From contig JAHBVS010000001.1 of the NCBI GenBank assembly GCA_019637445.1, positions 2,019,586-2,083,585 of the forward strand: 64,000 nt of DNA, read 5' to 3'. Below the pieces are notes generated by a model, which searched no databases, was not told the origin of the DNA, and saw only the letters and a list, made by a program, of their open reading frames with translations. This DNA comes from Gemmatimonadaceae bacterium. Its GTDB lineage: Bacteria > Gemmatimonadota > Gemmatimonadetes > Gemmatimonadales > Gemmatimonadaceae. The translations under genes and the position numbers were made by a program. Below, in pieces: positions 39,917-43,381 of this stretch. Numbering within the stretch: position 1 is the stretch's first letter; every line of letters starts with the position of its first letter.

Positions 39917-40876
39917 TTAGGGGCGCGACGAGCGTTGCCCCTCGACGGGAAGGTTCGCGTCCCGGCTCCATTCATCGAACGACCCATCGTACAGGGTCAC
40001 GTCGCGCCCGAGGGTGCGCAGCGCGAAGTAAGCCCATGACGCCTGCAGCCCGATGTGGCAGTAGGTGGTCAGCGCCTCGTTGGCGCCGATGCCGGCGACA
40101 CCGAGCATGCGCTCGAGCTCGGCCCGCGGCTTGAGCAGCCCGCGGTCGTCCACGACGGAGTTGAAAGGCAGGTTCACCGCCGACGCAATGTGGCCGCCGC
40201 GCGGCATGCCGTTGGCGCGCGTGTCCCCGTAGAACTCCGGCGTGCGCGCGTCCACCAGCCGACGGCCGCGGCCTTGGGCCGCGGCGAGCACGGAGTCGCG
40301 CGTGGCGACGAGCCCCTGCACGGGACGCACCTCGATGTCACCCGGGGCCGTCGCGGCCGGCCGCCGTCCAGACGCATCGGGGCCGGTAGCCGTGGCAGGT
40401 GCGCCTGAACGCAACGGTTGATTGGCGGCCTGCCACGCCGGCAAGCCGCCATCGAGCACGGCCACGCGCCCGCGCAGGCCCGCCCACTCCAGCGTGAAGA
40501 ACGCACGTCCCGCCATGTGGAATCGTCTCGCGTCGTCGAACACGATCACGACGCGCGAGTCGTTGCGGAGGCCGAGTGCACGCAGGTCGGCCTGCAGGCG
40601 CTCCGGGCTCGGCAACTCGAGTCGTAGGCCGCCCTCCGTCATTGGCGCCGAGAGCACGCCCTGGTAGTCCAGCCGCCGCGCACCGGGAATGTGCGCCGCG
40701 GTGAAGGACGAATCGTCGCCGAGCTGCAGGACAATGAGTCCTGGCTGCGCGAGCGAGGCGGCGAGCCACTCGACACTCACAGCGGGCGGCAGGTCGCCGC
40801 TCTGCGCCTCGGTGGCAACCGGCGCAGCCGCGCAGGCCGCCGCCAACGCCAGCAAATACACAGACGGTAGCCTCAC
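39917..40876 (-). CDS. Periplasmic two-domain rhodanese-type sulfurtransferase
   Basis: 319 residues with a signal peptide (1-24, ends VATEA-Q). Two rhodanese repeats: an inactive first one (about 33-150, HIPGARRLDY) and an active second one (about 170-310) with the persulfide Cys273 in TYCHIGLQASW. The six-residue loop fits a thiosulfate/mercaptopyruvate sulfurtransferase. GTG overlaps the kbl stop (GTGA at 40873-40876). An exported sulfurtransferase coupled to a glycine/threonine enzyme is unusual. Confidence 0.88.
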   Translation of the reverse strand: MRLPSVYLLALAAACAAAPVATEAQSGDLPPAVSVEWLAASLAQPGLIVLQLGDDSSFTAAHIPGARRLDYQGVLSAPMTEGGLRLELPSPERLQADLRALGLRNDSRVVIVFDDARRFHMAGRAFFTLEWAGLRGRVAVLDGGLPAWQAANQPLRSGAPATATGPDASGRRPAATAPGDIEVRPVQGLVATRDSVLAAAQGRGRRLVDARTPEFYGDTRANGMPRGGHIASAVNLPFNSVVDDRGLLKPRAELERMLGVAGIGANEALTTYCHIGLQASWAYFALRTLGRDVTLYDGSFDEWSRDANLPVEGQRSSRP

Positions 40877-42075
40877 TTGATCACTCCCGTCTTGAGCCCA
40901 ACCTTCCGGATCGCCGCCACCGCGCGCTCGAGGTCCTCGCGAGTGTGCGCCGCCGAGATCTGGCAGCGCAGCCGCGCCGTCCCCTGCGGCACCACCGGGA
41001 AGCCGAAGCCGGTGACGAAGATGCCCTCGTCGAGCAGCAGTTCGCTCATCCGGATGGCATCGGCGGTCTCTCCGATGATGATCGGCACGATCGGCGTGTC
41101 GCCGTCAAGCGGCGAGAAGCCCGCCTCCTTGATGGCGTTGCGGAACCAGACCGCGTTCTCGCGCAGCAGGCGCACGCGCTCGGGATGCGCCTCGATGAAC
41201 TCGATGCTGGCCAGCGCGCTGGCCGCCACGGTGGGCGGCAGGGCGTTGGAGAAGAGCTGCGGCCGCGAGCGCTGCGTTAGCGAGTCGCAGAGCGCCGCCG
41301 GTCCGGCCACGAACCCGCCCGCCGCACCGCCGAGCGCCTTGCCGAGCGTGGAGGTGATCACGTCCACCTCGCCGAGCACGCCGAAGTGCTCCGCTGTGCC
41401 GCGGCCCTTGTCGCCCAGCACGCCGGTGGCGTGCGAGTCGTCCATGATGAGCACGGCGTCGTGGTCGCGGGCGATCTGGATGAGCTCGGGCAGCTTGGCC
41501 ACGCTGCCTTCCATGGAGAAGACGCCGTCGGTCCAGATCAGCCGCCGCTTGGCGGCCTTGTTGGCCGAGAGCTTGGCGACGAGGTCATCGAGGTCCGAGT
41601 GCTTGTAGACGGCGGTGCTGCACTTGGTGATGGACTTGGCGAGCCGGATGGAGTCGATGATCGACGCGTGGTTCAGCGCGTCGGAGATCACGAAGTCGCC
41701 TTCCTGTACCACGCTGGCGGTGAGGCCCTCGTTGGCGTTCCAAGCGGACACGTAGCTCATTGAGGCCTCCGTCCCGACGAAGCGCGCGATCGCCGTCTCC
41801 AGCTCGCGGTGCACGGTGAAGGTGCCGCAGATGAAGCGCACGCTGCCGGTCCCGGCACCGAACTTCTTGAGCCCCTCTATTCCGGCTTCGACCACGGCAG
41901 GTTCGTCGCAGAGCCCGAGGTAGTTGTTCGACGAGAGGATCAGCACCTCGCCGCGCCCCTCCATCTGCACGCGCGCCGACTGCGGCGAGTCCAGATGGTT
42001 GAGCTTCTTGTACGTGCCGGCGGCCTTGAGGGCGTCGAGTTCTGTCTGGAGTCCGGAGACAAATGCCTTGTTCAT
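40873..42075 (-). CDS. kbl: 2-amino-3-ketobutyrate CoA ligase (glycine C-acetyltransferase)
   Basis: 400 residues from ATG 42073-42075; 12 more upstream residues would lie inside the inverted-repeat element, so they are rejected. Alpha-oxoamine synthase: SSNNYLGLCDEPAV, GTGSVRFICGTFTVHRELE, DALNHASIIDSIRL, MDDSHATGVLGDKGRG, and the PLP lysine in ITSTLGKALGGAAGG. It splits 2-amino-3-ketobutyrate from Tdh into glycine and acetyl-CoA. tdh lies upstream on the same strand with a 192-base gap that contains the element. Confidence 0.95.
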   Translation of the reverse strand: MNKAFVSGLQTELDALKAAGTYKKLNHLDSPQSARVQMEGRGEVLILSSNNYLGLCDEPAVVEAGIEGLKKFGAGTGSVRFICGTFTVHRELETAIARFVGTEASMSYVSAWNANEGLTASVVQEGDFVISDALNHASIIDSIRLAKSITKCSTAVYKHSDLDDLVAKLSANKAAKRRLIWTDGVFSMEGSVAKLPELIQIARDHDAVLIMDDSHATGVLGDKGRGTAEHFGVLGEVDVITSTLGKALGGAAGGFVAGPAALCDSLTQRSRPQLFSNALPPTVAASALASIEFIEAHPERVRLLRENAVWFRNAIKEAGFSPLDGDTPIVPIIIGETADAIRMSELLLDEGIFVTGFGFPVVPQGTARLRCQISAAHTREDLERAVAAIRKVGLKTGVIK

Positions 42076-42104
42076 TCTGGCTTCTTTGTATGGATGGAAA
42101 CTGA

Positions 42105-42261
42105 TTGCCACAGAGGCACAGAGACACAGAGGACTACAACAAACTAAGGGGGTCAGGGCGGACAGATCTGTCCACCCGGACCCCCAAGATGCTCACTCGA
42201 ACGGCACAGAGGTGGTCAAGCGGAGCCCCGATCCCTCTGTGTCTCTGTGCCTCTGTGGCAA
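42105..42261. repeat. 157-bp palindromic element with 28-bp perfect terminal inverted repeats
   Basis: Arms 42105-42132 and 42234-42261 are exact reverse complements over 28 bases and mismatch immediately inside and outside. Each arm contains three copies of an 8-base unit, CACAGAGR, in tandem. A second nested palindrome lies at 42148-42185. A further CACAGAGG copy sits at 42205-42212. The element fills most of the tdh-kbl gap and encodes nothing. It looks like a non-autonomous miniature element (MITE-like). CACAGAG/GCAGAGG-type repeats recur in many bacterial genomes, as far as I recall. Confidence 0.85.
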
Positions 42262-42267
42262 AGCAGT

Positions 42268-43296
42268 TCAGGCAATCTCGAAGACCACCTTTCCGGCCTC
42301 GCCCGACTTGATCACGGCAATCGCTTCCGCATGCTGCTCCAGCGGGAACCGGTGCGTGATCACCGGCGTCGGATCGAACTGCCCCGAGCGCAGGAACTGC
42401 GTCATCTGGATCCAGGTGTCGTACATACGCCGGCCGACCACGCCGTAGATCGTGACGCCCTTGAAGATCACTTCCGTGGCGAAGTCCACGTCCATTGGCT
42501 TCGCGGGGATGCCCAGCATCTGCACGCGGCCGTCCACGCGGACCAGCTTGAAGGCCTGATGGATCGCCGCCGGGACGCCGCTCATCTCCAGCACCACGTC
42601 CACGCCCAGTCCCTGTGTGGCCGCACTGACGGCCGCGTCTGCGTCCTTCGGATGCACCGCGCTGTGCGCGCCCATCGCCGTCGCCAAGGCCAGTCGCTTC
42701 GGGTTCACATCGCTGGCCACGATGTGCGAGGCGCCCGCCGCCTTGGCGATGCCCACCGCGAAGATGCCGATCGGGCCGCAACCCGTGACCAGCACCGTCT
42801 TGCCCGGCAGGTTCGTGCCGTGGAGCGCCGTGTGGAAGGCGTTGCCCATCGGGTCGTGGATGCCGCCGATCTCGTAGGGCACGTTGTCGTCCAGCGGCCA
42901 CACATTGGTGGCCGGCATCGCGATGTAGTCCGCGAACGCGCCGTCGCGGTCCACGCCGATGATCTTCGTGTTCGGGCAGACGTGCGCGTTGCCCGTGCGG
43001 CAGAGGTGGCACATCCCGCAGACGATGTGTCCCTCGGCCGTCACGCGGTCGCCCACCTTCACATCTGTGACCAAGGCGCCCACCTTCTCCACCTGGCCGG
43101 CGAACTCGTGGCCGACCACGAAGGGAGGCCGGCAGCGACCCTGGGCCCAGGCGTCCCACTCGTGGATGTGCACGTCCGTGCCGCAGACACCGGCCCGGTG
43201 GACACGGATCAAGACTTCATCGGCCCGGATCTCCGGGATGGGGACTTCCTTCAGTACAAACCCCGCGGCGGGGGATTCCTTTACCAGTGCGCGCAC
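42268..43296 (-). CDS. tdh: L-threonine 3-dehydrogenase
   Basis: 342 residues from GTG 43294-43296 (MRALVKESPAAG), which matches the family length of about 341; a TTG at 43308 would add 4. Zinc medium-chain dehydrogenase: catalytic zinc Cys in AGVCGTDVHIHEWD and His in VVGHEFAGQV, structural zinc in CGMCHLCRTGNAHVC, and NAD-binding VTGCGPIGIFAVG. It oxidises threonine to 2-amino-3-ketobutyrate, the substrate of Kbl. It is divergent from the kinase at 43382. Confidence 0.95.
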   Translation of the reverse strand: MRALVKESPAAGFVLKEVPIPEIRADEVLIRVHRAGVCGTDVHIHEWDAWAQGRCRPPFVVGHEFAGQVEKVGALVTDVKVGDRVTAEGHIVCGMCHLCRTGNAHVCPNTKIIGVDRDGAFADYIAMPATNVWPLDDNVPYEIGGIHDPMGNAFHTALHGTNLPGKTVLVTGCGPIGIFAVGIAKAAGASHIVASDVNPKRLALATAMGAHSAVHPKDADAAVSAATQGLGVDVVLEMSGVPAAIHQAFKLVRVDGRVQMLGIPAKPMDVDFATEVIFKGVTIYGVVGRRMYDTWIQMTQFLRSGQFDPTPVITHRFPLEQHAEAIAVIKSGEAGKVVFEIA

Positions 43297-43381
43297 GCAG
43301 AAACTCAAGAATTGTGGGTGGTTGAGCGATACTGAAACGTCGCCCCGCAGGTCAGGGGATGAAAGGGGCGAAGGGCAATCG

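Follow-up and report, generated by a model that had tools for sequence, protein, structure and literature searches.

What is the palindrome that lies between tdh and kbl in this Gemmatimonadaceae genome (G000), and how did it come to be there? In the window, the whole stretch of 64,000 nucleotides that was analysed, tdh (L-threonine dehydrogenase; 42268-43308, minus strand) and kbl (2-amino-3-ketobutyrate CoA ligase; 40873-42075, minus strand), both named from sequence and gene order, are separated by a non-coding palindromic element of 157 bp (42105-42261) that lies 29 bp from the kbl ATG (42075, minus strand) and 6 bp from the tdh stop codon (42268, minus strand). Its arms, 28 nt each and 101 nt apart, occupy 42105-42132 on the plus strand and 42234-42261 on the minus strand; the right arm is the exact reverse complement of the left (100% complementary), and each consists of TTGC followed by three CACAGAGR units (CACAGAGG, CACAGAGA and CACAGAGG). 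The single-stranded form is one long hairpin. A first-pass annotation of the window had described exact 28-bp inverted arms of three such units, in a 157-bp element that has no coding capacity and separates tdh from kbl, and this description was confirmed; no coding sequence of its own and no ORF were identified inside the tdh-kbl copy. The further statement that the arms break off sharply holds for the 28/28 perfect bases and fails at the edges, where an imperfect AACTG(C)T extension runs outward and adds six RNA base pairs (AACTGA at 42099-42104 on the plus strand, common to many copies as AACTGCTT; AACTGCT on the minus strand at 42262-42268, where it touches the tdh stop codon). The interior contains a central G/C-rich palindrome (42148-42185), resembling the centre of many 183-190-bp copies, and an internal half-arm, GGCACAGAGG (42203-42212, plus strand), which together with the right arm makes up a half-hairpin found alone in 68-71-bp copies. 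The internal half-arm is a remnant of a longer doublet structure, the other inner half-arm being missing in the tdh-kbl copy.

Searching the genome with the arm pattern, allowing at most three mismatches, gave 67 forward and 64 reverse matches compared with 5 + 5 for the reversed control pattern, so the matches are not due to chance. Forty-nine paired elements were extracted, and counting unpaired and degenerate arms suggests a total of approximately 55-65 copies. The analysis of the genome covered pattern searches and the regions surrounding the copies. The shortest element measures 52 bp and the longest 314 bp, and most are 68-71 or 183-193 bp long; interiors are variable and arms nearly invariant, with strongly conserved outer bases TTGCC that are often preceded by AACTGC or a GTGCGCTGAG-type stretch. 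Among the 183-193-bp copies plus the tdh-kbl copy, 40/50 halves had an inner inverted half-arm approximately 20 nt inward of the outer arm, versus 3.4% when the interiors were shuffled, indicating that each half folds into a hairpin, as the free 68-71-bp copies do. Judged by this layout of two hairpin halves flanking a G/C-rich central palindrome, the 183-193-bp class is a doublet of the 68-71-bp class. REP singlets and REPIN doublets have a layout equal to that of the short and doublet copies of this family.

Several single arms were also observed. At position 2174 of locus L044 (contig C1 near 802680), an XRE-type regulator gene with a possible nucleotidyltransferase gene after it has an unpaired arm immediately upstream; no second arm was detected in the stretch examined. 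Arms at L070 (920-946), at the start of L081 and in L234 are cut off at CCTTGTATG or CCTTCTATG by an apparent insertion-sequence end, which reads TGTATGTCTCCCAAGGTACGTGG in L070 and L081.

The search with the arm, which the first-pass annotation had proposed for the genome and its relatives, was extended to 148 genomes of the family and showed a patchy distribution of 0 to 132 exact matches per genome, the high-copy genomes falling in separate genera. None of the congeners examined carried this element at the tdh-kbl junction: several had other inverted repeats there, with units of the GACGGAA, GGATGAAG, GATGGGA, AGTTGGG and GAGGTCG types, and others had junctions 5-20 bp long. The patchy arm distribution and the differing junctions indicate that the family is dispersed and labile, and the many copies in this genome, the lack of coding sequence and the absence at congener tdh-kbl junctions identify a dispersed, non-coding, MITE-like element, in agreement with its initial description as MITE-like, non-autonomous and dispersed. 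A single copy conserved at the same site had been named as the observation that would speak against mobility; the opposite was found, namely many copies and a site that is not conserved.

These comparisons bear on the idea that the sequence, instead of being mobile, belongs to the tdh-kbl operon as a resident device for regulation or RNA processing (an RNase III site, attenuator or transcript insulator). The transcript strand folds at -111.1 kcal/mol compared with -62.2 for shuffled sequences (z = -11.2), and the element sits inside the presumed transcript, between the tdh stop and the kbl start, both of which fit such a device. However, the element is not conserved at this site in any relative examined, it is found at dozens of other sites in the genome, and there was neither a terminator-like T tract nor a promoter match at the element, nor an Rfam family above the gathering score (two chance matches scored far below it). 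The comparative data exclude a resident regulatory element as the primary explanation, which we regard as very improbable. A secondary effect on tdh-kbl expression may exist: in the tdh-kbl mRNA the element would be a very stable hairpin, probably serving as an RNase III site or as a spacer between the genes.

Arm sequence differs between related genomes. A CACGAAG pattern matched 103 times in the congener G012, 20 times in G008, 12 times in G002 and not at all in G000, and a CRCRGAG pattern matched 132 times in G000, 20 times in G012 and 14 times in G008. At one G012 locus (L227; C1:225400-226100), CACAGAG-type and CACGAAG-type arms are interleaved in the order A-B-centre-A'-B', an arrangement for which a simple nested insertion is no explanation.

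How such copies spread was addressed through the junctions of the elements and the candidate enzymes. No transposition event was observed, and a base-exact empty site was obtained for none of the copies of G000, owing to the intergenic sequence between species being too divergent. The first-pass annotation had supposed that such copies probably move with a transposase supplied in trans, which is not supported in that form, and had proposed a search for target-site duplications. When the 49 elements were compared at every fixed offset, direct repeats of 3-9 bp did not recur consistently. A Y1/RAYT transposase was rejected as the driver, as PF01797 had no match in G000 and the control genomes were positive. 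IS481 and IS30 transposases found in two G012 elements larger than 1 kb were likewise rejected and are considered passengers, because they come from unrelated families and the IS481 copy possesses separate inverted ends together with a CTAG duplication. These results weigh on the possibility that the copies are conventional MITEs, that is, derived by deletion from an insertion sequence and moved in trans by its transposase (DDE or other), which would recognise the CACAGAG arms. Such an origin would agree with the inverted ends, the small size and the dispersal, and the two G012 transposases do lie between CACGAAG arms, but the inverted ends and CTAG duplication of the IS481 copy are located inside the arms and point to a nested insertion, the second transposase comes from a different family, and a consistent target-site duplication was not found. 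MITEs share with this family their small size, non-coding interior, inverted ends, intergenic dispersal, multiple copies and apparent lack of autonomy; they differ from it in that no parental transposon with a transposase was identified here, no target-site duplication accompanies the copies, and the arms are conserved around a variable interior. A conventional MITE would further require the gene encoding the GxxExxY protein to be a passenger or cargo, whereas this is the only gene class found repeatedly immediately inside the arms. Sharing of ends was seen only with the GxxExxY gene unit. We consider a conventional MITE unlikely.

The G000 genome has exactly one GxxExxY gene (TIGR04256; C1:1771227-1771565), which is bracketed by TTTACC(ACGGAGAC)n repeat arms whose CACGGAG unit is a single transition away from the unit of the dominant CACAGAG copies. 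Compared with this coding element, the tdh-kbl copy has the arms and lacks the ORF. A further palindromic element with GGATGAAGGATGGA tandem arms was noted near the GxxExxY gene (L084, 2530-2660; C1 near 1772300). The association was quantified using 240 bp at each gene end of 40 testable GxxExxY loci from several families and phyla, with two sets of controls, 160 windows of identical geometry displaced along those GxxExxY loci and 29 tdh loci. Inverted arms scoring at least 15 were detected at 23/40 GxxExxY loci, compared with 0/160 shifted windows and 0/29 tdh loci, and 22 of the 23 arm-positive loci matched a loose pattern for an RCRRAG-type unit; the other 17 of the 40 had no strong flanking arms. 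Individual contigs from Bacteroidota, Chloroflexota, Alphaproteobacteria and viruses are among the arm-flanked cases, including a Chloroflexota locus (L175), Bacteroides (L244), Bernardetia (L242), Sphingomonas (L241) and a viral contig (L245). In Bacteroides finegoldii the arm-flanked gene adjoins radA and has TTCACCACAGAGGACGCAGAGGACACGGAGG arms, and in Sphingomonas an arm-flanked GxxExxY element lies between fabD and fabG in one genome, a second Sphingomonas having a short spacer and no element there. No arms were found around the GxxExxY gene of a Persicobacter plasmid (L243), where similar AATCC-rich stretches were seen on both sides in direct orientation. What is new here is that CACAGAGR-type arms also flank a GxxExxY nuclease gene, in several phyla. 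Among open-access papers, none was found that links GxxExxY to mobility or to a repeat, or that mentions this repeat.

In one sister genome, the sequence of the coding arms follows that of the dispersed copies. The GxxExxY gene of G012 has CACGAAG arms matching the approximately 50 dispersed copies of its own genome (the 103 matches above), and the genomes of genus g1 scored as lacking GxxExxY have 0-1 arm matches. At the level of whole genomes, 26/29 genomes of the family with at least two arm matches held GxxExxY versus 76/119 of the other genomes (Fisher p = 0.0045, not corrected for phylogeny), an association that was not significant at thresholds of at least 6 or at least 10 matches; this co-occurrence is weak and was not used as main evidence. 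Three genomes (G100, G116 and G121) had 18-51 arm matches and no GxxExxY gene was detected in them. The gene occupies one syntenic site in G000, G008 and G012, with arms that differ among the three, so the coding copy was not seen to move within the genus; it looks, from this synteny, to be resident while the arm sequence turns over. RAYT genes have been described as single-copy and vertically inherited (PMC8049555), and the residency of GxxExxY with arm turnover resembles that description.

The same observations can be set against spread without any dedicated enzyme, in which the elements spread or persist as RNA/DNA hairpins, replication template switching, gene conversion and recombination amplify palindromes of tandem repeats, and the GxxExxY elements are only coding hairpins of that kind. 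Such a process would suit arms that are tandem repeats varying together on both sides, the different repeat units found at one intergenic site in congeners, and the genomes with arms and no GxxExxY gene. It is at odds, however, with the finding that one nuclease family recurs, across phyla, specifically between RCRRAG-type arms, and with the covariation of coding and non-coding arms from genome to genome, and we judge it possible but unlikely.

The properties of the GxxExxY protein were examined in order to assess its possible activity. Residues E24, D64, E74, K76 and Q88 are invariant or at least 90% conserved in 38 GxxExxY proteins, and the conserved residues, including E74-x-K76, correspond to the PD-(D/E)XK signature, consistent with the Pfam name PDDEXK_3 (PF13366). 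A sequence profile search of the PDB gave no match. The AlphaFold2 model (pLDDT 96) had its best structural match in the Cas4-family protein SSO0001 (Z 9.9), followed by matches of middling strength (Z 6-7) to restriction-like folds and Hjc Holliday-junction resolvases. GxxExxY is thus a predicted PD-(D/E)XK nuclease of the Cas4/lambda-exonuclease/Hjc fold group, and the modelled fold suggests an enzyme that would act on DNA ends, flaps or junctions, such as hairpin or cruciform arms would supply. The gene that such arms enclose belongs to the PF13366/TIGR04256 family, which is known only as one of uncharacterised PD-(D/E)XK proteins.

A parallel arrangement was seen for genes of the four-helix-bundle family (TIGR02436/PF05635, the 23S intervening-sequence protein, IVP). 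Among loci L145-L174, one of which is L164 (G000 C2:529992-530312), inverted arms were present at 22/24 testable ones; the genes lie outside rRNA, and the arms are mostly 7-mer tandems of varied sequence whose unit differs by genome. GATGGGA arms matched 143 times in G016 and 105 times in G010, with no matches in G000, G012 or G008; in both G010 and G016 the four-helix genes carry GATGGGA arms that match the repeats dispersed in the same genome. The 23S rRNA intervening sequence (IVS) of Coxiella is 444 nt long, has 28-bp inverted ends and is excised by RNase III (PMC4990558), and by analogy it looks like a ribosomal member of this four-helix, 7-mer arm class. Such intervening sequences share with the present family a small palindrome with long inverted ends, at most one tiny ORF and a long RNA hairpin, but they interrupt rRNA genes and RNase III removes them from the transcript (PMC4990558), whereas the tdh-kbl element has the 8-mer arms of the GxxExxY class, no ORF and a location outside rRNA.

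The reading to which we give somewhat better than even weight is that the tdh-kbl element belongs, as a non-coding copy, to a dispersed palindrome family of which the GxxExxY nuclease gene is the coding form, in a relationship like that of REPINs and RAYTs. The arms of this family would be tandem 8-mers with RCRRAG-type units and TTYRCC/GGYRAA ends, and the coding form would carry one small gene, GxxExxY, between such arms. Once single-stranded, the arms may fold back into hairpins or cruciforms, which the GxxExxY nuclease would recognise and cut or resolve, and the hairpin, once freed, could be inserted between genes in trans by copying or joining, as proposed for RAYT acting on REPINs. The dispersal, shared arms and anatomy of the copies, the gene-arm association in several phyla and the identity of coding and non-coding arms in one sister genome are features of the sequences themselves; that GxxExxY mobilises the copies is what we infer.

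The comparison with REPIN/REP-BIME repeats and their RAYT (TnpA-REP) enzymes is close in several respects. Both comprise short palindromes, apparently extragenic, whose copies number from tens to hundreds, with singlet hairpins (here 68-71 bp) and inverted doublets (here 183-193 bp), and in both one or few enzyme genes appear linked to a repeat that varies by lineage. In REPIN systems the enzyme gene is flanked by the repeat itself; here, arms of a like type flank GxxExxY, which is not a RAYT, at 23/40 loci, and they are identical to the dispersed ones in G012 and one transition per unit apart in G000. In contrast to REPIN/RAYT systems, G000 has no Y1/HUH transposase (PF01797) and the linked enzyme is a PD-(D/E)XK nuclease; the arms are tandem 8-mers instead of GTAG/CGTC-tagged REPs, and a GTAG/CGTC tag was absent from the aligned flanks of the elements, where the conserved outer bases are TTGCC.

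Taken more broadly, GxxExxY nucleases and, separately, IVP four-helix proteins may be the mobility proteins of two parallel, widespread palindrome classes (with 8-mer and 7-mer arms, respectively), whose hairpins spread without a known transposase and of which the tdh-kbl copy is one product; we hold this wider proposal tentatively, at a little short of an even chance. The evidence points to a kind of mobile repeat not described before, one whose spread would need no classical transposase. The element is thus genuine and of greater interest than a plain MITE, since the REPIN-like family to which it belongs as a non-coding member is linked to a predicted PD-(D/E)XK nuclease. GxxExxY and IVP genes are common, often multicopy and unexplained in environmental bacteria, and their location inside palindromes with tandem-repeat arms gives both a testable role. 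This placement would add a nuclease-based counterpart to REPIN-RAYT systems; it also accounts for intergenic repeats of the CACAGAG, CACGAAG and GATGGGA types and ties them to the long-unexplained intervening sequences of 23S rRNA.
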